In this document: in pieces, positions 7,859 to 35,788 of the stretch
How the letters are laid out: each line of letters begins with the position of its first letter
How positions within the stretch are numbered: position 1 is the stretch's first letter
DNA from: Urechidicola croceus
GTDB taxonomy: Bacteria > Bacteroidota > Bacteroidia > Flavobacteriales > Flavobacteriaceae
Direction of reading: 5' to 3'
Assembly: GCF_001761325.1 (NCBI RefSeq)
Contig: NZ_CP017478.1
Location: forward strand, 378,001-442,000
Length of the DNA: 64,000 nt
Translations under genes and position numbers: made by a program
Notes under the pieces: generated by a model
The model's input: the letters and a program-made list of their open reading frames with translations, nothing else
Database searches by the model: none
Told to the model about the DNA's origin: nothing

Positions 7859-8846
7859 TAATCTAACTAAAAAAACGAAGTACAATTCAACCCTAACCAC
7901 TTTAAGTAATTTACTTATAGAAGAAGGCTATGATGTTGTTGTTTCATCAAATAAAAAAAATAAAGTTTTAAGATTATTCGACATGTGTTTGACAGTATTT
8001 AGAAATAGAGATATAGTTGATTATATACTGATTGATACTTTTAGTACTGTTAGTTTTTATTTTACATTCTTTACATCACAATTAGCACGTTTATTTAAAA
8101 TTAAATATATTCCAATTCTTCATGGTGGTAATTTACCTGAAAGACTGAATAAATCTCCTAGAATGTCACAGAAAATATTTAATAATTCATATAAAAATGT
8201 TGCCCCTTCAAATTATTTAAAAACTGAATTTGAGAAAAAGGGATATAACACTCATTTTATACCTAATACAATTGAAATTGAGCAATATAAATTTAAAGAT
8301 AGAATAGATTTTAAGCCAAAATTACTTTGGGTAAGAGCCTTTGATAAAACATATAATCCAGAAATGGCAATATACGTATTGAAGGAATTAAAAAAAGAAT
8401 TTAAAAATGCAAAATTATGTATGATTGGTCCATTTAAAGACAATACTTTAATTTTAACACGAAAATTAGTTGAAGAATTTAATTTAGAAAATGATGTTGA
8501 AATTACTGGTGTAATGAAAAAGGAAAATTGGCATAAAAAATCTGAAGAGTTTGATATATTTATCAATACAACCAATTTTGATAATACTCCAATTAGTGTA
8601 ATAGAAGCAATGGCTTTAGGGTTACCAGTTGTTTCAACTAATATTGGCGGAATACCATATTTAATTGAAAATGAGGTTGACGGTTTTTTAGTTGATGTAA
8701 ATGATGTGAAAAATATGACCAAAGCAATTATTAAATTGAATAATAATTCTGTTGAAGCAAAGAAAATGATTAAAAATGCTAGATTAAAAGTTGAAAAATT
8801 CGATTGGTTATTTGTCAAAGATAAATGGAAGGATATTTTGAAATAA
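7836..8846 (+). CDS. glycosyltransferase family 4 protein
   Basis: 336 aa GT4 enzyme. It starts MRILYIGNNLTKKTKYNSTL, its donor domain begins near residue 160 (PKLLWVRAFDKTYNPEMAIY), and it has the diagnostic FDNTPISVIEAMALGLPVVSTNIGG motif (about residues 248-272). The start overlaps the end of the Wzy-like gene by 23 bases, and the stop abuts the next ATG with no gap. It acts on the cytoplasmic face in repeat-unit assembly; donor and acceptor are unknown. Confidence 0.85.
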   Translation: MRILYIGNNLTKKTKYNSTLTTLSNLLIEEGYDVVVSSNKKNKVLRLFDMCLTVFRNRDIVDYILIDTFSTVSFYFTFFTSQLARLFKIKYIPILHGGNLPERLNKSPRMSQKIFNNSYKNVAPSNYLKTEFEKKGYNTHFIPNTIEIEQYKFKDRIDFKPKLLWVRAFDKTYNPEMAIYVLKELKKEFKNAKLCMIGPFKDNTLILTRKLVEEFNLENDVEITGVMKKENWHKKSEEFDIFINTTNFDNTPISVIEAMALGLPVVSTNIGGIPYLIENEVDGFLVDVNDVKNMTKAIIKLNNNSVEAKKMIKNARLKVEKFDWLFVKDKWKDILK

Positions 8847-10238
8847 ATGCAAAAAAATATACAATATATATATACAAAAAGCCCAATACTATTACAGAAT
8901 ACAATTATATCAGTATATGGTTATTATTGGAAAAATAGAAGGTTAGGTAAAGTATTTAAAAAATATTTAAATAATTTCAAAGTTCGTGAATCATACACTG
9001 AAAATGAATGGTTTGATTATCAAACATTGGAATTAAGAAAATTATTAATACATGCATTTTTATCAGTTCCTTATTATAATAAAAAGTACTCGAAAGCAGG
9101 ATTTACTCTTACGGATTTTGAGAATTTTAAATTATCAGATTTATCAAAACTTCCTTATTTAGAAAAAGAAGATTTAAGACAGTTTGGAAAAACAACATTA
9201 CTTTCATCTAAGAGAAGTAAAGGAAAATTTTACTCAAGTAGTGGTAGTACAGGTACTCCAATATCTGTTTATTTTTCAAAAGATTTTCACCAGATTTGGA
9301 ATGCTGCTTATGAAGTAAGAGTTAGGAATTGGGCAGGGGTAGATTATAAAATGGCTAGAGGGATGATTGGTGGTCGTAGAATTTTGCCAAATTCAAATGC
9401 GAAACCACCTTATTATAGATACAATGCTGCGGAAATGCAAACGTATTTTTCTGCATATCACATATCAGAAAAGACAGCGCATAATTATGTTGAAGGATTA
9501 ATTGCTAATAAAGTTGAATATTTAGTGGGTTATGCTGTAAGTATTTATACTTTGTCAGATTTCATTCTTAAATTGAAAATTAAAACTCCAAAATTAAAGG
9601 CGGTATTGACATCTAGTGAAAAATTAACAAATACAATGAGATTAAGCATTGAAAAAGCATTTCATTGTAAGGTTTTTGATGGATATAGTGGGGTAGAAGC
9701 ATGTGGATTGATATCAGAAAATAATCAAGGTGAATTATTGATGAGTCCTGACACTGGTATAATGGAAGTTATTGATCAAACTGGAAATCAAGTAAAAAAT
9801 GGTCAAAGTGGTGAAGTTATAGCGACTGGTCTATTAAATTTTGACCAACCATTAATTAGATATAGAATTGGTGATACAGTTACAATGGCAAAGAGTCAAA
9901 AGTCAATTTCGGGATTGAATTTTCCACTTGTAGAACAAATTGATGGTCGAGTTGAGGATATTATTGTGAGTAATGATGGTCGAAAAATGGTTCGTTTTCA
10001 TGGAATATTTATTGAAATTCCAAATCTAAAAATAGCTCAAGTAATTCAAGAAAGTTTAGAAAAAGTAACAATAAATTTAGTTGTAGATGAAAATTTTGAT
10101 TCTAGTAATGAAGAAGTAATTAAGAATAGAATTAAAAGTCAACTGGGTGAAGTTATTATTGACTTTCAGTATTTAAATGATATTCCTAAAAATAAAAACG
10201 GAAAATTTAAAGCCGTAATTTCATACATTAAAAAATAG
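8847..10238 (+). CDS. CapK/PaaK-like AMP-binding family protein of polysaccharide clusters
   Basis: 463 aa, in the phenylacetate-CoA ligase/coenzyme F390 synthetase-like family often named CapK in capsule loci. It has the adenylate-forming P-loop-like motif SSSGSTGTPISVYFS (about residues 131-145), DGYSGVEACGLISE (residues ~277-290) and the late DGRVEDIIVSNDGRK motif. Such proteins are thought to activate an acid for decoration of the glycan, but their reaction is generally unproven. The gene follows the upstream stop directly. It may work with the hydroxyacid dehydrogenase at 858-1805 to supply an acyl group; that link is inference. Confidence 0.75.
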   Translation: MQKNIQYIYTKSPILLQNTIISVYGYYWKNRRLGKVFKKYLNNFKVRESYTENEWFDYQTLELRKLLIHAFLSVPYYNKKYSKAGFTLTDFENFKLSDLSKLPYLEKEDLRQFGKTTLLSSKRSKGKFYSSSGSTGTPISVYFSKDFHQIWNAAYEVRVRNWAGVDYKMARGMIGGRRILPNSNAKPPYYRYNAAEMQTYFSAYHISEKTAHNYVEGLIANKVEYLVGYAVSIYTLSDFILKLKIKTPKLKAVLTSSEKLTNTMRLSIEKAFHCKVFDGYSGVEACGLISENNQGELLMSPDTGIMEVIDQTGNQVKNGQSGEVIATGLLNFDQPLIRYRIGDTVTMAKSQKSISGLNFPLVEQIDGRVEDIIVSNDGRKMVRFHGIFIEIPNLKIAQVIQESLEKVTINLVVDENFDSSNEEVIKNRIKSQLGEVIIDFQYLNDIPKNKNGKFKAVISYIKK

Positions 10239-22104: not shown

Positions 22105-22172
22105 ATATAAAAACCTGCTGAAATTAATCAGCAGGTTTTTTTCTTTTTCATATCAAAATTTACCTTTGGTAA
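22105..22172 (-). ncRNA. possible ~65-nt small RNA from a regulated promoter
   Basis: The dyad plus -7 element at 22179-22225 points leftward into 22091-22178, where no gene exists on the minus strand. A transcript starting near 22172 would meet the perfect 10-bp hairpin at 22111-22138 read in reverse, followed by five T. The result would be a short RNA with a small TTACC-AAA-GGTAA stem and a terminator stem. There is no direct evidence of expression; it could instead run antisense into recQ or be silent. Confidence 0.2.
22111..22138 (+). terminator. Rho-independent terminator of recQ
   Basis: Perfect 10-bp stem AAACCTGCTG / CAGCAGGTTT with an 8-nt loop, followed by seven T on the + strand and five T on the minus strand. 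It lies 20 bases after the recQ stop. Confidence 0.9.
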
Positions 22173-22178
22173 TTTATT

Positions 22179-22225
22179 CAAATTTATAGATAAAATACTT
22201 ATTGTAAAATACCCATTAGTAGGTA
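22179..22225 (-). promoter_or_regulatory. dyad operator + -7 element, site 1 (no gene downstream)
   Basis: On the minus strand the 16-bp dyad TACCTACTAATGGGTA (22210-22225) is followed after exactly 23 nt by TAAATTTG (22179-22186), a perfect Bacteroidota -7 box. The geometry is the same as at sites 2-5. The + strand face also looks like a weak terminator (stem ATACC/GGTAT then T7), which is the main alternative reading. Confidence 0.5.
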
Positions 22226-22319
22226 TTTTTTTAAATATGATAAGGTTTGAGGATATTTAAGCCCCCTAAAAAATAAATACCCTCAAACAAATACAACTAA
22301 CTCATAATCATAATTTTAT

Positions 22320-25300
22320 TTAATGTTTGATTATTTTTTGTGTATATACCTTATCATTTATTTGTGTTTTTAATAAATAAACTCCAGTTGGTAAATTTTC
22401 AATATTTACTGTTTCTTCTGATTGTTTCATTGATTTACTTAATACAACTTTTCCTTGAATATTAAATATTTCAATTGTATAGTCTGAACTTAAATTGGCT
22501 ATTTTAATATTTAATAATCCTCTAGTAGGATTAGGATAAATACTAATTTTTGAACTTAATTCATAATCATCAATACCCAACGAAGAATCAATAATTGTAA
22601 TTGTAATTTCTACAGAGCCAATATTTCCACTACTATCTGTAACAATAAAGTCAACTGTATAAATTCCAATTTCAGTAAAAGTATCTTCACTTAACTCAAC
22701 TGTTGCAACTTCACAATTGTCACTTGCTGTGATTTGTACATCTTCAACAGGAACGGTTATAGAATCTTCTCCTGCTAAATCATATTCAATATCCATAGCA
22801 TCAGCAATAGGATTGATGTTATCAACCACATTAACAGTTACTCCCGTTGTCCCAAGATTTCCATTCAAGTCATATACATGATAGGTAACACTATTTTCAC
22901 CTAATTCGCTACAATAGAACTCTTCTATATCAACTTCAGTATAATCAATTCCACAGTTATCAGATGAGCCATTATCTAAATCTAATACATCTAACATTCC
23001 AACACCATTTTCATCTAATTCAACAGTAATTTCATTTACTGCAATTGCAATTGGATCAACTAAATCAACTACTGTAACCGTTGCAGTTGCATCATCAGTA
23101 TTTCCAGAAATATCAGTTACTGTTAACGTTACTGTATTTTCTCCAATGTTATCGCAAGTAAATTCTGAAATATCAATGGATTTACTAGTAATTTCACAAT
23201 CATCAGTTGAATTATCATCAATATCATCTGCAGTAATAGTGGCATTACCATCAGAATCTAATTCAACAATAATATCTTTAGTTACAGCAGTTGGATTGAA
23301 TGGGTCTTCAACTATTACAGTAACGCTTGCAGTATCCATATTACCAGTATCATCATATACGTGAAAGGTTACTAGATTTTCTCCAACTTCATAACATGAA
23401 AATGTAGAAGGTTCAACTTCTAATAATGCAATATCACAATTATCTGTAGATCCATTATCTATGTCAATATAATCAATTGTTGCTTCTCCAGTTTCGTCTA
23501 ATTGAATAGTTATTGATTCAACTGCTATTGCAACTGGATTGGTATTATCTTCAACCGTTACAATGGCTGTTGTGCTATCAGAATTTCCACTTTGATCAGT
23601 AACAGTTAATGTTACTGTATTTTCTCCAACATCTTCACAGGTAAACTCCGTTATATCTAGAGATTTTGATTCAATACTACAATTGTCGGTTGAATTGTTA
23701 TCAATATCATCTGCAGAAAATGAAACATTTCCACTGTCATCTAACTGCACAGTAATATTTTGTGTAATTGCCGTAGGATTTACACTGTCTTCAATAGTTA
23801 CTATTGCAGTTTCACTTGCTGTATTATCACTTTGATCTGTTACTGATAATGTCACTGTATTTTCACCTAAATTGGAACAATCGAATGTAGTTATATCTAA
23901 ACTATAGTCACTAATAGTACAATTATCAGTAGAACCGTTTTCAATTTCAGTTGGAGTAATTGATGCATTGCCATCAGCGTCTAGTTGTACTGTGATGTTT
24001 TGTGTACTTACAATTGGATTAATATTATCAACTACAGTAATTGTTGAAGTTGTATTACTAGAATTACCACTTTGGTCCTCTACAGTTAATGTAACTGTGT
24101 TCTCTCCTAAGTTTGTACAATCAAAACTAGTAATATCAACAGATTTTAATACAATCGAACAATTATCAGTTGAAGTATCTATATCTTCAGCAGATAAAGT
24201 TCCTAGGCCATCAGCATCTAATTCAATAGTAAAATCACTTGCACTTGCAATTGGATTTACACTGTCTTCAACAGTTATAATGGCTGTTGCTGTTTCAGTA
24301 TTATCACTTTGATCAGTTACAGATAAAATTACACTGTTACTACCTAAATTGGTACAGTCAAAAGTAGACTTGTCTAAACTGTAACTCGCTATTGTACAAT
24401 TATCTGTAGAACCATTGTCTAAATCTTGTGGATTTACAGTTACATTTCCATCAGCATCAAGTTGTACCGTTATATTTTGTGCAATAACAGTTGGTGCGAT
24501 TGAATCTTCAATAGTAACAGTTGCTGTTCCTGTACTCACTTTATCTTCAAAATCGGTTGCAGTAAGTGTTACCGTATTTGCTCCTAAATCATCACAATCA
24601 AAATCTGTAATATCAATTTCTACTGAAACTAATTCACAATCGTCAAAAGTACCATTATCAACATCATCAACAGTTATTGATGCTAGTCCGTTTTCATCTA
24701 ATTGAACTGTAATATCTTCAGATACAATTGTTGGATTGGCATTGTCATATACATCTACATCAACTCCATAATCATAATGAGACCATTCACCATTTTCATT
24801 TTGTAAACGAATATAAAAATCATGTAAATCACAAGGTAAAACTTCAGTAGTTGATAAGTCTACAGTATACTCATCAGGATTTCCTGTTGGTGTTAAACTT
24901 GCTTCTGCACCATTTCCAAAACCAGGATCTTCATCATAATAATATTCTGCTTTGACAATAGGAGATATATCTAAATTATTTTCTGGTTGTACAAAAAATG
25001 TTTTTCGATCGTATAAACTCCATACACCTTCAGAATCTAGAACTCTTATATATAAACGATTAAATCCTTCTGGAATATCCGAAGGTAATGCTAATGAAAT
25101 TGTTTCATCTACAATTCCTGAGTTTGCAGTTAAACTAATTGCTGTACCGTTTCCAAAACCAGGATCATCATTAATATAAAATTCGGCTGCAGTTATATTA
25201 TCTGCAACTACTGTTGGATCACTTGTTAAAACATAAAATTTTGCTATATCATATAAACTCCATACATCATTATCATCTTTAACACGAATATAAATAGAAT

Positions 25301-25721
25301 TAAAACCTTCTAAAGTTGCTCCTAATGGAATAGCAAAAGTTTGATTGACCTCGCCTGTATTTGTGTCAATAGTTAAAGCAGTTCCATTTTCAAAACCAGG
25401 ATCAGTATTTATATAATATTCTGCAGCAGAAATTTCAGTAGCTGCTGTTCCTGTACTTAAATCTTGTACATAAAATTGTACTCTATCATACAGACTCCAT
25501 GTATTAGCATCATCTTTTACTCTAACGTAGAGTGAGTTGAACCCAACCAAATCACTTTCAAGTGGAAGTGACATGTCTTGTGTGAGTTCACCTGCATTAC
25601 TATTGGCTGTTATGGTGATTGGACTCCCATTGTTATAAAAATATTCCACTTCTGTGATGGATTGACTATAACTGAGAACTACAAAACACAATAACGGCAC
25701 TAAAAGTAGTAGCCTTTTCAT
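22320..25721 (-). CDS. secreted HYR-like repeat protein with T9SS sorting domain
   Basis: 1133 aa. A signal peptide (residues 1-19) is followed by four ~75-aa repeats (about 20-325) of the pattern EYyiNxDPGFGNG...VRVKDDxxxWSLYDrxxFYV. Then come nine ~80-aa Ig-like repeats (about 329-1050), each starting NPxAxxxxITVQLDxxG and holding one conserved Cys pair (xDNC...FDCxxLGENTVTLTVTD), as in HYR domains. A type IX secretion C-terminal domain ends the protein (YPNPTRGLLNIKI ... VYLLKTQINDKVYTQKIIKH). It should be exported, crossed by T9SS and held on the surface or released, as an adhesin or matrix protein. It starts 2 bases after the beta-helix gene, so it is cotranscribed with it. Confidence 0.85.
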   Translation of the reverse strand: MKRLLLLVPLLCFVVLSYSQSITEVEYFYNNGSPITITANSNAGELTQDMSLPLESDLVGFNSLYVRVKDDANTWSLYDRVQFYVQDLSTGTAATEISAAEYYINTDPGFENGTALTIDTNTGEVNQTFAIPLGATLEGFNSIYIRVKDDNDVWSLYDIAKFYVLTSDPTVVADNITAAEFYINDDPGFGNGTAISLTANSGIVDETISLALPSDIPEGFNRLYIRVLDSEGVWSLYDRKTFFVQPENNLDISPIVKAEYYYDEDPGFGNGAEASLTPTGNPDEYTVDLSTTEVLPCDLHDFYIRLQNENGEWSHYDYGVDVDVYDNANPTIVSEDITVQLDENGLASITVDDVDNGTFDDCELVSVEIDITDFDCDDLGANTVTLTATDFEDKVSTGTATVTIEDSIAPTVIAQNITVQLDADGNVTVNPQDLDNGSTDNCTIASYSLDKSTFDCTNLGSNSVILSVTDQSDNTETATAIITVEDSVNPIASASDFTIELDADGLGTLSAEDIDTSTDNCSIVLKSVDITSFDCTNLGENTVTLTVEDQSGNSSNTTSTITVVDNINPIVSTQNITVQLDADGNASITPTEIENGSTDNCTISDYSLDITTFDCSNLGENTVTLSVTDQSDNTASETAIVTIEDSVNPTAITQNITVQLDDSGNVSFSADDIDNNSTDNCSIESKSLDITEFTCEDVGENTVTLTVTDQSGNSDSTTAIVTVEDNTNPVAIAVESITIQLDETGEATIDYIDIDNGSTDNCDIALLEVEPSTFSCYEVGENLVTFHVYDDTGNMDTASVTVIVEDPFNPTAVTKDIIVELDSDGNATITADDIDDNSTDDCEITSKSIDISEFTCDNIGENTVTLTVTDISGNTDDATATVTVVDLVDPIAIAVNEITVELDENGVGMLDVLDLDNGSSDNCGIDYTEVDIEEFYCSELGENSVTYHVYDLNGNLGTTGVTVNVVDNINPIADAMDIEYDLAGEDSITVPVEDVQITASDNCEVATVELSEDTFTEIGIYTVDFIVTDSSGNIGSVEITITIIDSSLGIDDYELSSKISIYPNPTRGLLNIKIANLSSDYTIEIFNIQGKVVLSKSMKQSEETVNIENLPTGVYLLKTQINDKVYTQKIIKH

Positions 25722-25723
25722 AA

Positions 25724-26824
25724 TTAGTTGGCTTTAGCAGATATTGTTACTGTTAAATCACCATTTTTAGGCACTGTAGAACTATAACTTTCTATTTTCA
25801 TTGCAGGAATACCTGTTGGCTCTCCAAAATTTTTGAAGTTATAACCTTGATAAATACCTAAATCTGTACCTCCAGAACCCGCACCAATGGCTGGTGAGTC
25901 TGCTTGTAATGTTAAATCATCTTCATAAGGATTCCAAGTTGTTCCTGAAGCACCAACTATTGAACTATTATCAGTTGGATCAAGACTCGTAAAAAGTGGA
26001 TCTATATTTAGGAGCATATTATTAGTAGTATTAACTGGAAATGAGTTTGTTGCAATATTTAATGTGCCCGATTCATTATAATTATAAGTAAGGCAATTGT
26101 TCATTTGATAACTACCGCCTTGAATGGTTATATCAACATCACTTCCCCAATTAGTGACAAAAATACAGTTGTTTATATTTAGTACACCATCTGTTGTTGC
26201 ATTATAGATTGTTACTCCATATAAATAATAACCTCTAATAATATTATTATCAAACAATAATGTGTCTGTCATCCCAAAATAGATGTTACTGGAATATGCA
26301 TTAGTAAAAATATTGTTGTTTATTAATATGTTTGATGAATTTGAATAAACTTTTAAAAATTGTATGACATTTCCTTGAAATAATATATTATTAAACGTAA
26401 TAACACTTCCAATTGAAACTGCAGCAATATCATTGTCAAAAAAAGCAAGATTTTCTATAGGTACTGTACTACTGTTTTCATAAATACCACTTGTAATATC
26501 TAAACCTTTAATAGTACTATCTGATGCACCTTCATCTAAATATAAATAGTCAATAGTTGATTTATACCCTGCGTCACTGTGTGAACGCCCTACTAAGGTC
26601 AAAGCTTTATTTAAAGTAACACTACCATAAGAAGTAGATGATTGTTGTATATAAATAACATCTCCATCAACGGCTGCATCAATAGCGGCTTGTAAATCAG
26701 CATAATCTGCAGCTGCACCAGCATTATTGTCAACGGTTGTTTGTGCATACATTAAAGAACTTGTTGCTATAAAAACTAGCAATAAAAGGGTTTTGTTTAC
26801 AGTGTTAAGGAATTTTGTTTTCAT
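25724..26824 (-). CDS. secreted right-handed beta-helix protein (pectate-lyase-like fold)
   Basis: 366 aa with signal peptide (residues 1-28, ending MYAQ). The start of the mature protein, DYADLQAAIDAAVDGDVIYIQ, is the usual opening of bacterial parallel beta-helix/DUF1565-like proteins. Short strand repeats rich in I/N follow (INNNIFTNAYSSNIYFG, LNINNCIFVTN). No catalytic residues can be named and no T9SS C-terminal domain is visible: the protein ends TVTISAKAN. It shares an operon with the HYR-like T9SS protein 2 bases downstream. A structural or carbohydrate-binding role is possible; function is not known. Confidence 0.7.
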   Translation of the reverse strand: MKTKFLNTVNKTLLLLVFIATSSLMYAQTTVDNNAGAAADYADLQAAIDAAVDGDVIYIQQSSTSYGSVTLNKALTLVGRSHSDAGYKSTIDYLYLDEGASDSTIKGLDITSGIYENSSTVPIENLAFFDNDIAAVSIGSVITFNNILFQGNVIQFLKVYSNSSNILINNNIFTNAYSSNIYFGMTDTLLFDNNIIRGYYLYGVTIYNATTDGVLNINNCIFVTNWGSDVDITIQGGSYQMNNCLTYNYNESGTLNIATNSFPVNTTNNMLLNIDPLFTSLDPTDNSSIVGASGTTWNPYEDDLTLQADSPAIGAGSGGTDLGIYQGYNFKNFGEPTGIPAMKIESYSSTVPKNGDLTVTISAKAN

Positions 26825-27102
26825 GATAGGATAATTTTAGGTTAATAGTTGTTTATAGTTTAAGGTTTAAATTAATGTGGTTATTTTCTTGCTTAGGTTA
26901 GAGAACTCTTAAAAAGAGTTCTCTATTAAAAATTACCCAAACAAAATTAGTCAACCCCAAATAAACTGATTTAGTGTTTTGTACTATTTTATGTTTGTTA
27001 TGCTATAATGCCTATGCTTTTTCTATTTTCGAAATAATAAGCAAGACTTTTTAATAAATAAGTAAGTGGGTTGAAATACAGAATTAAATGAATTCTGATA
27101 GT
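26825..27102 (-). promoter_or_regulatory. long 5' leader of the beta-helix/HYR operon with a strong hairpin
   Basis: If transcription starts at site 2, the mRNA has about 270 nt before the first codon. It contains a perfect 11-bp inverted repeat, AGAGAACTCTT / AAGAGTTCTCT with a 3-nt loop, at 26900-26924, some 75-100 nt upstream of the ATG. No T-run follows on either strand, so it is not an ordinary terminator. No ORF of note was seen. Confidence 0.4.
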
Positions 27103-27150
27103 CAAATGTAATTAGTAAAACCATTGCTGGTCAATACCCAATAATGGGTA
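27103..27150 (-). promoter_or_regulatory. dyad operator + promoter, site 2 (beta-helix/HYR operon)
   Basis: The dyad TACCCATTATTGGGTA (27135-27150) is followed at once by TTG (-33) and after 21 more nt by TACATTTG (27103-27110), a perfect -7 box. The -7 start lies 24 nt from the dyad. Downstream, GACTATCA is shared with site 4. The dyad centre would sit near -42, a typical activator position. Confidence 0.75.
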
Positions 27151-27189
27151 AATTAATGATAAACAGTATTTTACAACTTCAATATTTTA

Positions 27190-30100
27190 TTAGTTTTTAA
27201 TTAATTTTTGTGTTAATACCTTATTGTTTATAGAAACTTTAAGAATATAAACACCAGTTTTTAGATTGGTTAATTTTAATTGAGTTTGGCTGGTTATATT
27301 TTCTTTTGAAATAACTTTTTTACCTAAAAGGTCATAAATTTCAATTTTAGCTAGATCACTTATATTTGAAACAAATAGAATATCATTTGCAGGGTTTGGA
27401 TATACTGAGAATTTAGTATCTTTTAATTCATCAATTCCTAATGCTGCATCTATGGTTATATCATAAGGAATACTTTCAAGTGTTAAATCTGGAATGTCAG
27501 TATTAGTTACTTTAGCAACATATATACCAGTATCTTCTTCGGTTGTGTTTTCAATGGTGTAAGTTGCTTCATTTGCTCCATCTATTGCAACATCATCTTT
27601 ATACCATTGGTATTCGTTTTCGGCACCTCTTGCTGTTTGTCTAGTTCCTGTATCAAATATTGTAGTTAGTGTTATGTTTTCGCCAATTCCAGTAGTTATA
27701 GGTTCTTGTACATCACCAAAAGGATTCATTGGATTGTAAAAGAAATTAGGAACGTTGTTTATTAGATATTCAAATTGATTTTCAAGATCTGCAAAAATAA
27801 AGTTATTGTAACTAATGTTTAAAACTGAATTTTCTGTAGTTATTGCAGATAATGAAAAGTCAGGTAACTGCCCTGATAAGTTATTATTATCTATATAAAA
27901 ATAAGTTAAACTAGGTATTTCCGCAATTTCTTGTGGAATAGATCCATTAAGATTATTACTGGATAAATACAAATAAATTAGATTATTTAGATTACTTAAA
28001 TTAGTATCTAATTCTCCAGATAGTTGATTAAAACCGAGTATTAAATATTCTAAATTTGATAAATTACCAATACTTGCAGGAATGTTTCCTTCTAATTGAT
28101 TAGAGTATATTCCTAAGTAGGATAAATCGGTTAATGAACCTATTTCAATTGGAATTTCACCAGTTAGTTGATTTATACTAAGTGAGAGTGTATTTAAGTT
28201 TGATAAATTTCCAAGTGAACTAGGGATTTCACCAGAAAATTGATTGCCAGATAAGTCTAGCGTAGATAATTGGTTTAGGTTTTCAATTTCTGATGGAATT
28301 GTACCACTCAAATTGTTGCTATAAAGACTTAGTACATTGATATTATCTAAACCGTTTGTTATTACTGGTAATTCTCCAATTAAATTATTATTAAAAAGGT
28401 TAATACTTGATACTCTATTATTGTTGTTGAGCGTTATTCCATACCATGTATTTAGAGGAGAATTTGACAACCAATTGGTGTTATTTGACCAATTATCACC
28501 ATTTGTAGCATTGTAGAGTGTTTCAAGGGCATTATAATCTGGGTGTTCAGAAATAGGAGTTGTAATAGTTGCAGGATTTGTATACAATGTTAAACCTGTT
28601 ACAACAGAATTTGTAATTTCACAATAATATTCTCCACTAAAAGTAAAATCAAAATTTAACAACGATAGTGTTTCAAATGTTGCATCTTCAATTGCAATAC
28701 CATTTTTGTACCATTGATATAAATTATTTGTCCCAATTGTATTTGCATTAATAATAACGTCTGTATTGTTTGGAATAAAAGCATTTGCATCAACATTGAA
28801 ATCAACATTATATATTACTTGAGAACGATTTGATTGTGGTGCATAAGTAAATTCTGGAATATTATTTTGATAAGTCGTAAACTCGTTTTCAAAGTCACCA
28901 AATTGAAAACTATTATTACTTATATTAAAATATGCAAGATTAGTTAGGTTTGTAAAATCTGGGATATCTCCACTTAAAATATTATTACTTATTTGAAAAT
29001 TTATAAGATTAGTTAAATTTTGTAACTCGGTTGGGACTTGTCCAGATAAATTATTAAAGAATAGATATAAATAATTTAGGTTAGTTAAGTTTCCGATTTC
29101 AGATGGGATTTCTCCAGTAAGATTACAAGCTCTTAAGTCTAATTCATATAAATTTGTTAGGTTTCCAATTTCTGGAGGTATTACTGTACCGAAAAAATTA
29201 TTATCACCAAGTTTAAGTGTAGTTAAAGATGTAACATTTCCAATATCTGATGGAATACTTCCTGTTAAATCATTTACGGCTAAATTTAAGGTTATTAAAT
29301 TTGATAAATTTGTAATTTCAATAGGAATACTTCCTGTTAATTGATTTGTATTTAATCTCAGATAATATAAATTATATAAATTTCCTATTTCAGAAGGAAT
29401 TATACCATTCAATTGATTTACTTCTAAGTTAAGATATAATAATGATGAAATATCTCCAATTTCAGATGGAATATTGCCAGCCAAATTGTTGTAGCCGAGT
29501 AGTAAATATTGTAATGATGATAAATCATTAATAGTGTTAGGAATGCTTCCTGTCAAATTGTTATTTGTCAAATCTATATAGTAAACTCTATCATTTTCAT
29601 CAGTATATACACCATGCCAAGTTGAAATTGGTTCATTAGTTAACCAATTGGTATTATTAGTCCAATTTTCACCTTCTGTTGCATTGTAGAGTGCTACTAA
29701 AGCATCATAATCTGGATGGTTATTAATCGTAAGTGGGACACAATCAAGATTTCCATCTGCATCCGCATCATAATATGCAGGATCAAAATTTAAAGAACTT
29801 TCATAAAATTCGATTTTGTCAACTACCATATCTACTTCTGATAGCCCAAATTCTAATCTTAATCTGAATTTATTACTTGTAAAATTATTGAAATTTACTG
29901 TAAAATTATTAAATTCTAAAAATGACCAATCTGAAGTAAAAGAATAATGATTATTAAAATGTCTGTAAGCTCCATTTTCATCAATTAGCACCCATCTTAG
30001 GGCATCTCCATCAATATCTCCAATTCTTTTTACAGGAATTTTGAAATTATATGTTACACCTTCATGTAAAGTAAATTCTTCAGAGTAAATTGCATATTCT

Positions 30101-30393
30101 TCAAAAGTACTGTTATTTGGAGCGGTAACTACTAATGATTTATTGCCATGTAAAATATGCTCTGTATTTTCATTAATTGTAAAATACTCTTCGTTTTGAG
30201 GGATGGTCCAACCTATGAAGTCTGATTCAAAACTTTGATTACCAATAATAGATGAAGCAACATTGTTACAAGGGTCTATGCAATCTAAAACTCCATCTCC
30301 ATCGGTATCAGAATCTGACCCTGGTGGACATTGACTCCATAAGTTAATTTGAGATATTAAAAAAACACTAAATAAAAGTAAAAATCGCTTCAT
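27190..30393 (-). CDS. secreted LRR/Ig-repeat surface protein with T9SS sorting domain
   Basis: 1067 aa. It has a signal peptide (1-20), a calcium-binding thrombospondin-3-like stretch DSDTDGDGVLDCIDPCNN (about 26-43) and a jelly-roll-like region (to ~205). Two large LRR+Ig modules follow, starting HPDYDALVALYNATEGENW (about 226) and HPDYNALETLYNATNGDNW (about 619). Each has many LSGxIPxEIGNLxNLxxL repeats and then an Ig-like domain with the YQWYKNG/YQWYKDD strand. The C-terminal T9SS domain starts near 996 (FSVYPNPANDILFVS). It is predicted to be a surface adhesin. Two dyad promoters lie upstream (sites 3 and 4). Confidence 0.87.
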   Translation of the reverse strand: MKRFLLLFSVFLISQINLWSQCPPGSDSDTDGDGVLDCIDPCNNVASSIIGNQSFESDFIGWTIPQNEEYFTINENTEHILHGNKSLVVTAPNNSTFEEYAIYSEEFTLHEGVTYNFKIPVKRIGDIDGDALRWVLIDENGAYRHFNNHYSFTSDWSFLEFNNFTVNFNNFTSNKFRLRLEFGLSEVDMVVDKIEFYESSLNFDPAYYDADADGNLDCVPLTINNHPDYDALVALYNATEGENWTNNTNWLTNEPISTWHGVYTDENDRVYYIDLTNNNLTGSIPNTINDLSSLQYLLLGYNNLAGNIPSEIGDISSLLYLNLEVNQLNGIIPSEIGNLYNLYYLRLNTNQLTGSIPIEITNLSNLITLNLAVNDLTGSIPSDIGNVTSLTTLKLGDNNFFGTVIPPEIGNLTNLYELDLRACNLTGEIPSEIGNLTNLNYLYLFFNNLSGQVPTELQNLTNLINFQISNNILSGDIPDFTNLTNLAYFNISNNSFQFGDFENEFTTYQNNIPEFTYAPQSNRSQVIYNVDFNVDANAFIPNNTDVIINANTIGTNNLYQWYKNGIAIEDATFETLSLLNFDFTFSGEYYCEITNSVVTGLTLYTNPATITTPISEHPDYNALETLYNATNGDNWSNNTNWLSNSPLNTWYGITLNNNNRVSSINLFNNNLIGELPVITNGLDNINVLSLYSNNLSGTIPSEIENLNQLSTLDLSGNQFSGEIPSSLGNLSNLNTLSLSINQLTGEIPIEIGSLTDLSYLGIYSNQLEGNIPASIGNLSNLEYLILGFNQLSGELDTNLSNLNNLIYLYLSSNNLNGSIPQEIAEIPSLTYFYIDNNNLSGQLPDFSLSAITTENSVLNISYNNFIFADLENQFEYLINNVPNFFYNPMNPFGDVQEPITTGIGENITLTTIFDTGTRQTARGAENEYQWYKDDVAIDGANEATYTIENTTEEDTGIYVAKVTNTDIPDLTLESIPYDITIDAALGIDELKDTKFSVYPNPANDILFVSNISDLAKIEIYDLLGKKVISKENITSQTQLKLTNLKTGVYILKVSINNKVLTQKLIKN

Positions 30394-30415
30394 ATTATTG
30401 AAATTAGAATTAAAT

Positions 30416-30462
30416 AAAAATTATAAAAAGACTGAGTTTGATACAAGCCCCGATAATGGGTG
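30416..30462 (-). promoter_or_regulatory. dyad operator + promoter, site 3 (proximal, LRR gene)
   Basis: The dyad CACCCATTATCGGGGC (30447-30462) is directly followed by TTG, and 23 nt after the dyad comes TAATTTTT (30416-30423), a -7 box with one mismatch. It would give a ~15-25 nt leader before the ATG at 30393. Its spacing equals that of sites 1, 4 and 5. Confidence 0.6.
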
Positions 30463-30553
30463 CATTTTTTATTTAGTAATTTTAAATGTATTGGATTAAT
30501 ACATTTTTTCAATCTTTAAGGCAAATGATTGAACTTTAGAAGGTTGATAGTCT

Positions 30554-30600
30554 CAAAAATAAATGTATTTAATCAATATGTCAATACCCAATAGTGGGTA
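30554..30600 (-). promoter_or_regulatory. dyad operator + promoter, site 4 (distal, LRR gene)
   Basis: The dyad TACCCACTATTGGGTA (30585-30600) is directly followed by TTG and, 23 nt after the dyad, by TATTTTTG (30554-30561), a perfect -7 box. The leader would be about 155 nt. Together with flanking bases it is nearly identical to site 2 over 22-23 bp. Confidence 0.75.
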
Positions 30601-30647
30601 ATTTTACTTTAAAAGCATGAAAGTGTATTAGTTAGATTTGTAATTTG

Positions 30648-31418
30648 TTAAAAAAGATGGTTTGCGTTACAATATTTAATTATTTCAGCAGTAGTATTAA
30701 AATTCAATTTTTTTAAAATATTTTTTCTATGAACACTAACCGTGTGTTCGCTAATATTTAATTTATCTGAAATTTCTTTAGTTGTATTTCCTAAGGCTAA
30801 TAATCTCACTGTATCTATTTCTCTATTACTAAGGTTGTCTGTAAGAATTTCTTTTGAATAATTTTTGTAAAACAGGGTTTCGAACTCATTTTTCTTATTT
30901 AATTTTTTACAGATTGCAACCATTGGTTTTGCCTTGCCATTTCCAACCACTGTGTTGTGAGAAAATCCTATAATAGGTTTGTTATTTATATCAAAAAATA
31001 TGGGTGTTTGATGGACGTGCATATTTTTATAATTTCCATCACCTTTTCTAATGCGATAATTCCAAGAGTAACTTAAATTTGGTCTTTCTTCAATCGTTGT
31101 TTCATTCATTGTAAAAAGCATTAAATCTTCTAGAATTTTCATTAGGTTTGGTAAATCATCTGGATGATAATGAGATATATAGTATGGTAAACCTTCTGAT
31201 AGCATTTTTTCTTTATCTAACCCAAGTGTCTTTTCAAAGTTATCACTCACGAACTCATATTTTTGTGATGAGGTGTTTGTTACTAGAATAAAAGTTTCAA
31301 TTGATGGTAAATAACTATCAAGTTCTTTTAGTTTTTCAATGTGTTTTTTAACTAAACTACCATCATAGGTTTTATTAGTTGTAAAAACTTTTTCATAAGA
31401 TTTTAATGTATCATTCAT
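30648..31418 (-). CDS. PAS-LuxR transcriptional regulator without receiver domain
   Basis: 256 aa. A PAS domain occupies about residues 25-165 (PAS_3-like: YRIRKGDGNYKNMHVHQTPIFF). A NarL/LuxR-type HTH follows at about 192-256 (LSNREIDTVRLLALGNTTKEI, SEHTVSVHRKNILKKL). There is no receiver domain, so it may sense a ligand or redox state directly. It follows the response regulator by 12 bases and is the last gene of the peptidase/two-component operon. It is one of the two candidate binders of the dyad sites around the operon. Confidence 0.82.
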   Translation of the reverse strand: MNDTLKSYEKVFTTNKTYDGSLVKKHIEKLKELDSYLPSIETFILVTNTSSQKYEFVSDNFEKTLGLDKEKMLSEGLPYYISHYHPDDLPNLMKILEDLMLFTMNETTIEERPNLSYSWNYRIRKGDGNYKNMHVHQTPIFFDINNKPIIGFSHNTVVGNGKAKPMVAICKKLNKKNEFETLFYKNYSKEILTDNLSNREIDTVRLLALGNTTKEISDKLNISEHTVSVHRKNILKKLNFNTTAEIIKYCNANHLF

Positions 31419-31430
31419 CGTCCGTAAAGT

Positions 31431-32051
31431 TTAAAATTCATATTTTCTTTCAACAGCATATCTCAATAATTCACCTTTTCCGTGTAAGCCAAGAATTCTT
31501 ATCATGTTTTTTCTATGTGTATCTACAGTTTGTACACCAATAAATAGTTCTTCGGCAATTTCTCTTGATGTTTTGCCTTGTCCAACTAGTGATAATATTT
31601 CGAGTTGACGCTTTGATAAAACCCCTTTAGGTTTTGATATAGAATTGTCTATTGCATTTATATTTACATTTTTACCAAAATATTTTTCTCCTGTAAAAAC
31701 TTGTTTAATTGCTTCTAAAACATCATTTAAAGAAGAATTTTTTAATAAATATCCTGATGCTCCAGCATCCATCATTTTTATTATTGCATTTTCTTCACTA
31801 AACATTGTAAAGGCTATTATTTTAATATCAGGAAATTCCTTTTTAATAATTTTTGTTGCTGCGATACCATCAATTTTAGGCATCCGAATATCTGTTATTA
31901 CAATTTGCGGTTTTTTTCTTCTAACAATTTCAATTAGTTCTTCGCCATCATTTGCAGTTCCAACGATAGAAATATTTTCTTCATTTCTAAGAAGTAATTC
32001 AATGCCATCAATTAAAGATTGATGATCTTCGGCTATAGCAATTTGTATCAT
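31431..32051 (-). CDS. NarL/FixJ-family response regulator
   Basis: 206 aa: receiver domain (about residues 1-120) with the phosphoacceptor Asp54 in VITDIRMP and acid pocket E8/D9, then a LuxR-type HTH (about 140-206; LSKRQLEILSLVGQGKTSREIAEELF). Its gene overlaps the histidine kinase gene by 4 bases, so the two are a cognate pair. NarL-type proteins bind paired heptamers of TACxxxT kind in 7-2-7 spacing, which is just what is found upstream of the nearby genes. It is therefore the first candidate regulator of those sites. Confidence 0.9.
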   Translation of the reverse strand: MIQIAIAEDHQSLIDGIELLLRNEENISIVGTANDGEELIEIVRRKKPQIVITDIRMPKIDGIAATKIIKKEFPDIKIIAFTMFSEENAIIKMMDAGASGYLLKNSSLNDVLEAIKQVFTGEKYFGKNVNINAIDNSISKPKGVLSKRQLEILSLVGQGKTSREIAEELFIGVQTVDTHRKNMIRILGLHGKGELLRYAVERKYEF

Positions 32052-33928
32052 AATGGTAAATCTATAATTGTGGTTGTTCCTTTGTTTATTTCTGATTCAA
32101 TAATAATAGTACCTTCCATATGTTCTATTCTCTTTTCAATACTGTGTAGCCCCATTCCGTCATTGGTTTTAACATGTTTTGTATTGAATCCTTTTCCATT
32201 ATCTTCAACCATAATATTTAATGAATCTTCATGATTTGTCAAATGGATAAAAATATTTGTAGCATTGGCATGTTTAATTGAATTGGCGACTAGTTCTTGA
32301 ATAATTCTAAAAATGTTTAATTCTAAACTATTTTCAAGTCGGTTTTCAAGTCCGTGATCAATTACTTCTACTGTTATTTTGTTCGAAGAAGAAACCTTAT
32401 CGGCCATATTTTGAATAGCAACTAATAATCCTTGATTTGCAATAACACCTGAGTTTTTAGAATGTGCCATACTTCTAACTTTTGTATATGCTTCATCTAA
32501 TAGTTCTTCTGATTTATTGATAAGTTCCGTTTGTGAAAAAATTTTCTTTTTTTCATTTATTTTGAAATTTTCAAAATGCAATTTTAAAGTGGTTAAAACA
32601 CTTCCAATATCATCATGTAAATCTTCAGCAATTCTTTTTCTTTCTTTCTCTTGACCTTCAATCATAGCGTTAATACTATTTATTTCTTGATCTTTTAAAA
32701 GAGTAGAAACCTTTTGTTTCTCAATTTGCTCTTGTTTCTCGGCAAGTAATCGTTTTTTTCTTGAATTCTTGAGGAATAGGGAAGTAGTGACTCCACCAAA
32801 TATCATTAACCCTAATGTCCCTAATAAAATATTTCTTTTTTGGCGTTGTTGTTTTTCAACATTAGTTTTTAGCAGAATATTTTCTTTTTCCTTTTTTTCG
32901 GTTTGATATTTGGTTTCAAATTCTGCTACCTCTTGTAAATTTTTAGATTGATTTTGGCTCAAGATGCCTTGTAAAAACTCAATTTGATATTTATTAGAAT
33001 TACTCGGTTCATTTAAACTATTATAAACTTGAAACTTCCAATAAGAAACATAATTCTTTAATAATTTATTTAAGTAATCATTATTTTGAAATTGAATTGA
33101 ATCAAGTAATTTTATTGCTTCAGAATAGTTTTTTTTCTTGAATTCCAATGCTGCTAAATTAATTTGTGTTGCATTGAACCTTTCATTTTCAAAATAGCCA
33201 TTATTGGTAGTTAAAAAATATTTAGCTTTGTTTAAATAATAAAGACTGCTATCCAAATTCCCTTTAATTTTTTCCTGATAAAGTGCATTTGTAAGGTTTA
33301 ATTTTGTTTTTGTGAATGATAAGGTATCGTTTTTAAAAAGATTGTTAATTTCAATGTAAAGAGGTTCTATTTTACTAGGATTGTTATAGTGATACCTTAA
33401 GGAGATTCTATATTCAAAAAATTTAACATTTTTACGTTCAAAGTCGTCGTACGCATACTTTTTGTATTCATCTATAAAATACTGGTAGGAAATATCTCCA
33501 ATAGAAATAGCGAATCTGTTGTAAATTTCGAGAATAAGTTTTAAAGATTCACAAACCAATATATTGTCATTATTTTCTTTAGCATCATTAAGAGTTGCTT
33601 TTAATAAGTTGAAAGCCTTTAATTCATTTCCATTCACTAAATAATACTCTAGTGATTTATTTAAAGAATGAATAATTTGAGTAGAATTCTGCCTTTTTAA
33701 AGTATCAATTTCAATTTCTGAAATGTTATTAAACTTACCTAATTCAATAATGTTTAAATAATCGATTAATTCATCTTTAAGTGATTGATTATTTATTCCT
33801 TTTATATAGTTCCTAGCGTTAGTATAGTCATTTGTTTTAATTAAATATATTGACTTCTCAAGTTCGGTTGAAGCACTTGAGAAATAATATATAAGAAAAA
33901 ATAGTATAGCAAGTTTCTTTTTAAGCAT
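32048..33928 (-). CDS. sensor histidine kinase, HisKA_3 type with TPR-like sensor
   Basis: 626 aa. An N-terminal signal anchor (1-20) precedes a helical TPR-like region (about 25-345), then a membrane segment (about 365-385; NILLGTLGLMIFGGVTTSLF), a coiled coil, and the dimerisation/phosphoacceptor helix RKRIAEDLHDDIGSVLTTL (His near 436). The HATPase domain (about 530-626) has the N box ELVANSIKHA and G boxes DNGKGF and GMGLHSIEKR. This is the NarX/DesK-like class that pairs with NarL regulators. The gene starts 2 bases after the 197-aa gene and overlaps the regulator gene. Confidence 0.87.
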   Translation of the reverse strand: MLKKKLAILFFLIYYFSSASTELEKSIYLIKTNDYTNARNYIKGINNQSLKDELIDYLNIIELGKFNNISEIEIDTLKRQNSTQIIHSLNKSLEYYLVNGNELKAFNLLKATLNDAKENNDNILVCESLKLILEIYNRFAISIGDISYQYFIDEYKKYAYDDFERKNVKFFEYRISLRYHYNNPSKIEPLYIEINNLFKNDTLSFTKTKLNLTNALYQEKIKGNLDSSLYYLNKAKYFLTTNNGYFENERFNATQINLAALEFKKKNYSEAIKLLDSIQFQNNDYLNKLLKNYVSYWKFQVYNSLNEPSNSNKYQIEFLQGILSQNQSKNLQEVAEFETKYQTEKKEKENILLKTNVEKQQRQKRNILLGTLGLMIFGGVTTSLFLKNSRKKRLLAEKQEQIEKQKVSTLLKDQEINSINAMIEGQEKERKRIAEDLHDDIGSVLTTLKLHFENFKINEKKKIFSQTELINKSEELLDEAYTKVRSMAHSKNSGVIANQGLLVAIQNMADKVSSSNKITVEVIDHGLENRLENSLELNIFRIIQELVANSIKHANATNIFIHLTNHEDSLNIMVEDNGKGFNTKHVKTNDGMGLHSIEKRIEHMEGTIIIESEINKGTTTIIDLPL

Positions 33929-33930
33929 AT

Positions 33931-34524
33931 CTAGTCAATATAACATACATCGGGCATACAAATGCCAAATTTCCCAAACCCCATATCTTCTGGTGTTGGA
34001 AAAGGATCTTTACTTCCAACAGGTCTTGTGGAAACTTCATTAAAGTGGTCACCATCTCTAAAATGTGAGTACGGATTAATATATAGGGAATTGTCTAAAT
34101 CCTTTGGATTGTATAATTCAATAGGAGGGTTTAAAAGCATTACATTAGTTACTGCAATCATATTTTTAGGAATAACTTTTTCAACATTTAAATTGCAGTT
34201 AGAAATAATGTCATTTTTAATAAAAGGTTTTACAGATAGATTTATATTCAAAATTTCACCAAATTGTGTTTCTTTTTCATCTTTAGAAAATTTTAATGAA
34301 GGAGTATCCACTAATCCCATGGTTATGTTTCCTCTATAGTTCTGTAATCTAAAATCCCAATTATGACTATGAACCTCTATACCGTATTCATTTTTTATTA
34401 CTTCATATTTATTTATTTTGACATATATCATATAAAAAGTACCATGGTGCTCTGCACCATAAATAGGTTGCCAAGTATCTTTTAAATCAATTTTTAAGCG
34501 GAATTTTAAATTTTCGTGTGCCAT
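33931..34524 (-). CDS. hypothetical protein, second gene of peptidase/two-component operon
   Basis: 197 aa, no recognised family, no signal peptide, no membrane segment. The first half (KFRLKIDLKDTWQPIYGAEH, HSHNWDFRLQNYRGNITMGLVD) alternates in a way that suggests a beta-sandwich; the C-terminus has a Cys pair in FGICMPDVCYID. It lies 22 bases after the peptidase gene and 2 bases before the kinase gene, so it is cotranscribed. It could be a substrate, inhibitor or partner of the peptidase; this is inference from position only. Confidence 0.6.
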   Translation of the reverse strand: MAHENLKFRLKIDLKDTWQPIYGAEHHGTFYMIYVKINKYEVIKNEYGIEVHSHNWDFRLQNYRGNITMGLVDTPSLKFSKDEKETQFGEILNINLSVKPFIKNDIISNCNLNVEKVIPKNMIAVTNVMLLNPPIELYNPKDLDNSLYINPYSHFRDGDHFNEVSTRPVGSKDPFPTPEDMGFGKFGICMPDVCYID

Positions 34525-34546
34525 ATTTATTTAGTTTAAATTTGTT

Positions 34547-35680
34547 TTATGCAATTGCCATACCTTCCAGTGGCGGTAGTCTTTTTTCTGTTTTAAAATA
34601 TGATATTTTAGGGTTTTTGTGTAATGCCGATAAAAAAGTATAGTAGTTTTGCCATTCACTTTTCAATATGTAATCTTTTGGAAACGAAATTGGTTTAACC
34701 CATATTTCTTCGTCTCGAATTTCTACATTTATTCTTGTAGCATAATCTTCAATATAAGATTGTGCGTCACCTCTTAAAATTTTATATTTATTTTCAATAT
34801 TTAATTGATTTTCATGTATAAAGTTAACATCGGTATAAACAACTAAATCTTTATTGATTTTTTGTTCGCAATTTCCTTCTAGAAACTTTTCATTAAAATC
34901 TCTTTTTAATTTTATCAAAAACTCTTCTTTATAGCCTATATCTTCTCGTTTATTTGATATTTCTAATATACCTTGAGCAATAAATGAAGGGTCACGATGC
35001 CCTAAATAATTCCATATTTTTTTTAAAGATTGGTCTTCAGAGTTAGCAATATGTTCTTCGATGAATTTTTCAATAAATTCTATACTACTTTCAAGTAATT
35101 TATCTTTAACTAAATTATGACTATTTAATGCTGTTTTCCAAACTTTTTCCTTATTGATTCCATAAGTAAAATGTGAAAATTCAATGTAGGTTTCACCAAT
35201 ATTTTTTAAAGGATCACTAAGAAGAATATATTGGCAATTATTAAATTCGCCAAACCCATTTATTAAATTCATATGTGAATTACCATTATTATTTAGTTTT
35301 ATAACAATTGGTGATTGATGTGAAATTAAAATGCTTTTGATATAATCGAATGAGGATAAGTTGTTTAAAGCAATTTCTTGAGCATTGAATCCACCCTGAC
35401 TAAACAAATCACTTAAATCATTTTCTCTTAAACCAATATTACAACCAGACGGAATATTGTTTGAAGATGAACAGCAGTCTGTACACAAGTGGTTATTCCA
35501 ATTATTAAGACTTTTATATTCTTTATATGAACCTACAAGCTCACATTGTTTTGAGCCTATATTCGAATTAGATTTTAATCCATAAATCATTTTTGAAAGA
35601 CATGCCGCCCAGCACCAATAAGAATAATCTGGTTGAGAGACATGCTTTAAATCGGTAAAGCAATAAAAGTTAAAACTCAT
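34547..35680 (-). CDS. papain-like cysteine peptidase (C70/C39-like), first gene of the signalling operon
   Basis: 377 aa. The N-terminal domain (about 1-175) has the papain-like signature VSQPDYSYWCWAACLSKM, with Gln16 as oxyanion residue and Cys23 as nucleophile. His136 lies in SHMNLINGFG and Asp156 in LLSDP, a full Cys-His-Asp set as in AvrRpt2-type C70 or C39-like families. A Cys-rich insertion (LCTDCCSS, Cys66-70 and Cys80) is unusual. The C-terminal 200 residues are unrecognised. There is no signal peptide, so it is either cytoplasmic or exported by another route. Site 5 promoter lies upstream. Confidence 0.68.
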   Translation of the reverse strand: MSFNFYCFTDLKHVSQPDYSYWCWAACLSKMIYGLKSNSNIGSKQCELVGSYKEYKSLNNWNNHLCTDCCSSSNNIPSGCNIGLRENDLSDLFSQGGFNAQEIALNNLSSFDYIKSILISHQSPIVIKLNNNGNSHMNLINGFGEFNNCQYILLSDPLKNIGETYIEFSHFTYGINKEKVWKTALNSHNLVKDKLLESSIEFIEKFIEEHIANSEDQSLKKIWNYLGHRDPSFIAQGILEISNKREDIGYKEEFLIKLKRDFNEKFLEGNCEQKINKDLVVYTDVNFIHENQLNIENKYKILRGDAQSYIEDYATRINVEIRDEEIWVKPISFPKDYILKSEWQNYYTFLSALHKNPKISYFKTEKRLPPLEGMAIA

Positions 35681-35741
35681 AAAAATTTTATAAAAACAAA
35701 ATCAATATTTTAATTAATTTGTTATGAATTAATAATTAGCG

Positions 35742-35788
35742 TAAATATAATAGTTGTTTAAATACAAGAAAATCCCTATTAATGGGGA
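35742..35788 (-). promoter_or_regulatory. dyad operator + promoter, site 5 (peptidase/two-component operon)
   Basis: The dyad TCCCCATTAATAGGGA (35773-35788) is followed after 23 nt by TATATTTA (35742-35749), a -7 box with one mismatch, 62 bases upstream of the peptidase ATG. No TTG directly follows the dyad. The dyad with flanking A and T runs could also serve as a terminator for the ZIP gene upstream. Confidence 0.5.

Follow-up and report, generated by a model that had tools for sequence, protein, structure and literature searches.

In Escherichia coli, the NarX/NarL system acts at ogt and yeaR through 7-base inverted elements 2 bp apart beside the -35 element, and the NarL site at ogt is centred at -44.5, according to the available excerpts of one account (PMC7419079). 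In the Bacteroidota, FimR of Porphyromonas gingivalis binds the mfa1 promoter (PMC1974823), and FimS is described as having a periplasmic tetratricopeptide sensor (PMC11053733), again from partial texts. A third point of reference is the peptidase-bearing conflict systems of Kaur et al. (eLife 2020, 2021; PMC7159879, PMC8195603). In the excerpts at hand, trypsin-, caspase- and other peptidase domains interchange in these systems, and dedicated small partners accompany the trypsin-like peptidases. Here I describe a locus of Urechidicola croceus that shares features with each of them. The window, which means the whole stretch of 64,000 nucleotides analysed, covers positions 378001-442000 of a single-contig genome of 3,426,122 bp. 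It contains five 16-bp inverted repeats (dyads) in and around a block of genes for a protease-like protein, a small partner, a histidine kinase, a NarL-type response regulator, a PAS-LuxR protein and three surface proteins. It is quite likely, judging from sequence comparison, that the dyads are operators of the NarL-type regulator inside a modular, exchangeable cassette.

As in NarX/NarL, a NarL-type regulator is found together with 7-base inverted elements 2 bp apart beside a -35 element. If the -7 box spans -12 to -5, as reported for F. psychrophilum in the excerpt available (PMC9723704), the dyad centre falls near -43.5, not far from the centre of the NarL site at ogt (-44.5). Unlike NarX/NarL as excerpted, the locus has Bacteroidota promoter boxes, a -7 box at a fixed distance of 23 nt, a putative operator that is often terminator-like, and a variable cassette. 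FimS/FimR is likewise a Bacteroidota kinase/regulator pair, one that activates surface adhesin genes, a likeness drawn from its description; the parts of the accounts consulted describe no operator motif, nor exchangeable protease, sensor or cargo parts. Interchanging peptidases and small partners recall the conflict systems as excerpted, whereas the core here is a kinase-regulator pair with its own putative operator. Domain searches found no NTPase family among the window cassette genes, where a STAND/MoxR-type NTPase core was looked for; in this respect the cassette differs from the NTPase-centred conflict systems of those excerpts.

Dyads and -7 boxes around the regulator

All five dyads, with their -7 boxes and spacings, were located exactly where the initial annotation had placed them. 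TTG directly abuts three of them (27135, 30447 and 30585).

22210..22225, minus strand: dyad TACCTACTAATGGGTA, 23 nt before the perfect -7 box TAAATTTG (22179-22186); apparently an orphan promoter, 27 nt to the ATG at 22151
22109..22140, no strand assigned: predicted bidirectional intrinsic terminator between recQ and the cassette
27135..27150, minus strand: dyad TACCCATTATTGGGTA followed by TTGAC, 24 nt before the -7 box TACATTTG (27103-27110); 278 nt from box to beta-helix gene
30447..30462, minus strand: weaker dyad CACCCATTATCGGGGC followed by TTG, 23 nt before TAATTTTT (30416-30423); 22 nt to the start codon of the leucine-rich-repeat (LRR) gene
30585..30600, minus strand: dyad TACCCACTATTGGGTA followed by TTGAC, 23 nt before the -7 box TATTTTTG (30554-30561); 160 nt to the LRR start codon
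35773..35788, minus strand: dyad TCCCCATTAATAGGGA, 23 nt before TATATTTA (35742-35749); 61 nt from box to protease gene; terminator-like behind the ZIP gene

Is this arrangement found around related regulators? I analysed the best 80 named of at least 489 relatives of the regulator, with 10 kb on either side of each. These orthologs are 59-77% identical and come from Lutibacter, Winogradskyella, Aquimarina, Maribacter, Muricauda/Flagellimonas, Croceivirga, Mesonia and other genera. It was found that an extended dyad class, T[AC]CC-N8-GG[TG]A, stands exactly 23 nt ahead of TAnnTTT at 81 places in 59 of the 80 loci (from 234 dyads of the class), while six control palindromes with 328 oriented sites gave a single case at this distance. 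The stricter TACC-N8-GGTA has 52 occurrences at 23 nt, whereas other offsets average 1.5 and reach 8 at most; when the final G of the box is included, the figures are 31 and 0.06, respectively. The dyad itself is equally specific in form. A gap of 8 between TACC and GGTA gave 145 matches (9-43 for gaps 4-7 and 9-12), and a TA centre gave 73 (0-17 for nine other centres tested). These 73 copies of TACC-N3-TA-N3-GGTA are spread over 52 loci, and eleven palindromes of the same composition have 0-8 copies each. Thus, the dyads are linked to promoters and have the 7-2-7 form of NarL sites, as initially annotated: inverted 7-base elements, 2 bp apart, lie near the core promoter with the -7 box 23 nt on. 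The site consensus is AAAAATACCCA-n-TAATGGGTATTTTTT, 23 nt, then TAgnTTT(G/A), the rest of the spacer being little conserved.

The sites are concentrated at the regulator, with 128 per Mb in the central 7 kb and 8.6 per Mb outside (69 loci of at least 18 kb); 43 of the 80 loci have one in the 300 nt that follow the regulator's stop codon. A start codon follows the box within 450 nt in 71 of 85 site readings, at 15-40 nt in 51 of the 71. The genes behind the sites, 71 in number, fall into 36 families, and spacer identity is 32%, where 27% would be expected; with so many families and such near-expected identity, the 23-nt spacing is not merely the shared ancestry of one promoter. Many of these genes encode surface proteins, in agreement with the initial annotation: 11 of the 71 have a type IX sorting domain, and a crude signal-sequence rule selects 47 of the 71 versus 628 of the 1395 genes of at least 90 aa in the same loci.

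In the window, TACCCATTATTGGGTA is matched six times when up to 3 mismatches are allowed (at three places, on each strand), where 0.72 matches would be expected. The result for the whole genome was divided: the loose 16-mer (up to 3 mismatches) shows no excess, with 50 matches and 50 in the reversed control, while the dyad followed by TTGAC (up to 1 mismatch) has three copies (27135, 30585 and genome position 1901308) versus none in the control. Across 198 genomes, the dyad followed by TTGAC gave 13 matches versus 3 in the control. Four of the five window sites belong to the extended class: 22210, 30585 and 35773 have the 23-nt gap, and 27135 has one of 24 nt. With 3 sites in 64 kb, the 23-nt class reaches a density of 46.9 per Mb in the window, versus 2.8 per Mb around 20 PAS-LuxR genes. 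The outer bases of site 30447 put it outside the class, and it retains the 23-nt gap. Site 22210 lies 3′ of the stop codon of the HYR gene; beyond it there are an open reading frame of 7 codons beginning at the ATG at 22151 and then the bidirectional terminator. It is probably a promoter that lost its cargo gene, and a short RNA from 22109-22225 is a possible alternative. The third dyad-TTGAC copy (locus L027 6702-11867, genome about 1899700-1904870) precedes a gene for a 460-aa protein with a signal-like start and adjoins a phage-type integrase gene; a SLATT_2 gene is close by.

Which regulator probably reads the dyads

The initial annotation left the choice between the NarL-type regulator (31431-32051) and the PAS-LuxR protein (30648-31418). 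I compared 198 related genomes, in which NarL-type regulator orthologs (E up to 1e-60) are present in 25 and PAS-LuxR orthologs (E up to 1e-25) in 23. The motif TACCNNNTANNNGGTA followed by 21-26 nt and TAnnTTTG has 31 matches in 19 genomes versus 7 for the reversed control, and the gap is exactly 23 nt in 22 of the 31. This 23-nt motif is found in 11 of the 25 genomes with the NarL-type regulator and in 2 of the 173 without it (Fisher p = 9e-10, or 6e-9 with the window's own genome excluded). In the same 198 genomes, the motif shows no link to PAS-LuxR (1 of 23, p = 1), and that one is the window's own genome. Because the motif tracks the NarL-type regulator across genomes and does not track PAS-LuxR, the former is the likely activator of the dyads, and the comparison with relatives favours the first of the two proposals.

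The PAS-LuxR protein does have a LuxR-type domain and is encoded between the sites, and its closest ortholog (genome G014, locus L079) has a 23-nt-spaced site nearby. Against its regulating the five sites, of the 20 ortholog loci examined (from 24 matches outside the window) just one has such a site, and the syntenic loci L153 and L154 retain the dyads without a PAS-LuxR gene. With the genome counts given above, this alternative is very hard to credit.

Several observations count against the NarL-type regulator as the one reader of promoter-linked dyads. No site was found in 21 of the 80 loci, 153 of the 234 class dyads have no box at 23 nt, and in 14 of the 85 site readings the next 450 nt contain no start codon. 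In the window, two sites are off the usual geometry: 27135, where the gap is 24 nt and the gene is 278 nt away, and 30585, for which the latter distance is 160 nt. Of the 25 genomes with the regulator, 14 lack the 23-nt motif, and two genomes, G067 (two sites) and G031 (one site), have it without a close ortholog; their best regulator matches are 37% and 40% identical, respectively, and their best helix-turn-helix matches 36-52%. Thus, another LuxR-type protein may read the motif there. The operator might even be shared by several LuxR-type regulators, including the 126-141-aa GerE proteins of some cassettes, with the response regulator not its sole reader; GerE matches are indeed found in 6 of the 71 genes behind sites. 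I consider this rather unlikely, because the association at the genome level points to the response regulator and the small GerE proteins occur in a minority of the 80 loci.

In L159, L164, L170, L176 and L190, 126-136-aa proteins that cluster with the regulator's helix-turn-helix are encoded 3′ of the regulator, each preceded by a dyad of its own; GerE was confirmed for the small protein of L170. In G067, a site precedes a four-gene operon whose genes are 48-75% identical to the L154 cargo genes. The same four genes, whose products are probably exported, thus occur at L283 4502-8262 (G067) and at L154 12474-17504, in the latter behind a dyad and a 202-aa gene.

Could the dyads be only the intrinsic terminators of the preceding genes? 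They extend into A-run/T-run hairpins, and terminator-like scores were obtained for 35773 and for 30585 read on the plus strand. In 54 of the 65 site readings behind a co-directional gene, the dyad is followed by a T-run (at least 5 T in 6). Without such a gene, it is found in just 6 of 20 readings, 4 of which are reverse readings of sites already counted, and yet the dyad and its spacing are kept. A-runs are frequent in both classes (59/65 and 16/20). Read on the minus strand, neither of the two TTGAC sites (27135, 30585) has a T-run. Since a terminator alone would leave unexplained the exact 23-nt spacing, the short way from box to start codon (in 51 of 71) and the link to a single regulator, this explanation is improbable. 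A double role is another matter: a dyad behind a co-directional gene probably also ends the upstream transcript.

A probable constant core with exchanged input and cargo

The genes of the window block are as follows.

22320..25721, minus strand: HYR-domain surface protein with a type IX secretion sorting domain (cargo); 50-53% identical to HYR proteins in L156 and L170
25724..26824, minus strand: beta-helix surface protein (cargo); Beta_helix E 1.4e-4, below cut-off; 50% identical to an L170 gene
27190..30393, minus strand: LRR surface protein with a type IX secretion sorting domain (cargo); domain and sequence matches
30648..31418, minus strand: PAS-LuxR (GerE) protein; no association with the motif elsewhere
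31431..32051, minus strand: NarL-type response regulator, proposed activator; Response_reg E 7.6e-28, GerE E 5.8e-15
32048..33928, minus strand: histidine kinase with a constant HisKA_3/HATPase half and an exchangeable N-terminal sensor half
33931..34524, minus strand: small partner protein, family c12; predicted beta-sandwich without family match
34547..35680, minus strand: protein resembling papain-fold cysteine proteases; all 9 sequences compared have C23 and H136; sub-threshold Peptidase_C70 match (E 0.022)

The regulator consists of a receiver domain and a C-terminal GerE helix-turn-helix, as in the NarL/FixJ type. HisKA_3 and HATPase_c were found in the kinase, and in 78 of the 80 ortholog loci the regulator gene has a kinase gene of this cluster as its neighbour. 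While the kinase halves all align (mean identity 63%), the sensor half tracks the class of the protease encoded upstream (66 of 87 pairs versus 13 of 213; 0 of 2000 permutations). In this upstream slot, proteases of four unrelated families interchange in 24 of 74 loci, for example in the window (34547-35680), L193, L208 and L180. The c12 partner, with N62, G65, R156 and C189 invariant in 27 sequences, was found by its profile in 33 of the 80 loci. Sensor type does not predict cargo (22 of 249 versus 76 of 879 pairs, reached in 532 of 1000 permutations).

The exchange can be followed within the genus. At the congeneric loci L153 and L154, ZIP and recQ flank the same kinase and regulator as in the window, and the upstream genes and cargo differ; the kinases of these loci (8106-10004 and 8115-10004, respectively) are about 73% identical to that of the window in the kinase half, while the sensor half scarcely aligns. 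The recQ neighbourhood was examined in seven other congeners: four have ZIP and recQ adjacent with no cassette, one has just a 232-aa gene between them, in one the contig ends at recQ and an HYR-like gene next to it, and one has a different neighbour. Another conserved neighbourhood, with a 355-aa gene (family c4), is found in 47 of the 80 loci. The order LRR, beta-helix, HYR recurs in L170, L156 and L187, and L170 also has the papain-like and partner genes. Tandem kinase genes were found at L170 6198-10004; similarity to the window kinase extends along the entire first protein and is mostly confined to the kinase half of the second.

Thus, the system is not local, as first supposed, but recurs in many Flavobacteriaceae, and it is wider than the initial annotation saw because protease, sensor half and cargo are exchanged. 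The three surface protein genes were also named as targets, a claim that needs qualification: HYR follows the beta-helix gene with no site directly upstream, site 22210 being downstream of it, and the nearest site to the beta-helix gene, 27135, is 278 nt off. Self-activation of the regulator's operon is weakly supported. Site 35773 fits, since it stands before the protease gene, the first of the protease-partner-kinase-regulator genes, but the kinase operon begins 1.5-6.5 kb upstream of the regulator, and a same-strand site falls in that interval in only 3 of the 59 site-bearing loci.

The modular reading has its own difficulties. A recognised protease is present in just the 24 of 74 loci, and four members of the protease families lie outside the upstream slot. 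Membership in the trypsin-like family comes from profile and motifs, single sequences scoring weakly or not at all. The window's sensor half has a very weak tetratricopeptide match only (E 0.078); in the ten kinases scanned, tetratricopeptide families exceed the Pfam cut-off in those of L154 and L170. Loci of the same genus are not independent and the permutations ignore the tree, which stratification by kinase identity answers in part.

Proposed mechanism and meaning

From the geometry and the co-occurrence, I infer that the regulator probably binds as a dimer to the inverted half-sites TACCC/GGGTA, whose centre is some 43 nt 5′ of the transcription start, and would activate sigma-A promoters that have a TAnnTTTG/A -7 box. 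The constant core would consist of the regulator and the kinase's catalytic half. In front of it would stand an exchangeable input module, made up of a recognised protease (in about one third of the loci, from four unrelated families), the small partner, and a kinase sensor half whose type goes with that of the protease. In this module, the protease may give the signal, be its target or act as a separate effector. Behind the shared operator, exchangeable proteins, often exported or surface-located, would be plugged in, which in the window may be LRR, beta-helix and HYR. Where a co-directional gene lies directly upstream, the dyad usually has a T-run and would also end that transcript.

A wider reading, which I hold tentatively and a little short of belief, is that these loci are an undescribed class of modular surveillance cassette in Flavobacteriaceae, with an exchangeable protease/partner/sensor input, a constant kinase-regulator-operator core and plugged-in exported proteins, swapped independently by recombination at fixed chromosomal sites. 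The input modules may then recognise something, perhaps different rivals, phages or damage signals.

For a NarL-type regulator in Flavobacteriaceae, the dyad offers a candidate operator at the sequence level, and its fixed geometry would predict regulons and start codons from genomes. With four protease families in one slot and a sensor half that tracks them, the question of what feeds the kinase sensor becomes testable by comparison of natural modules. The two-component system may act as a socket, that is, a constant core whose input and output are exchanged independently.

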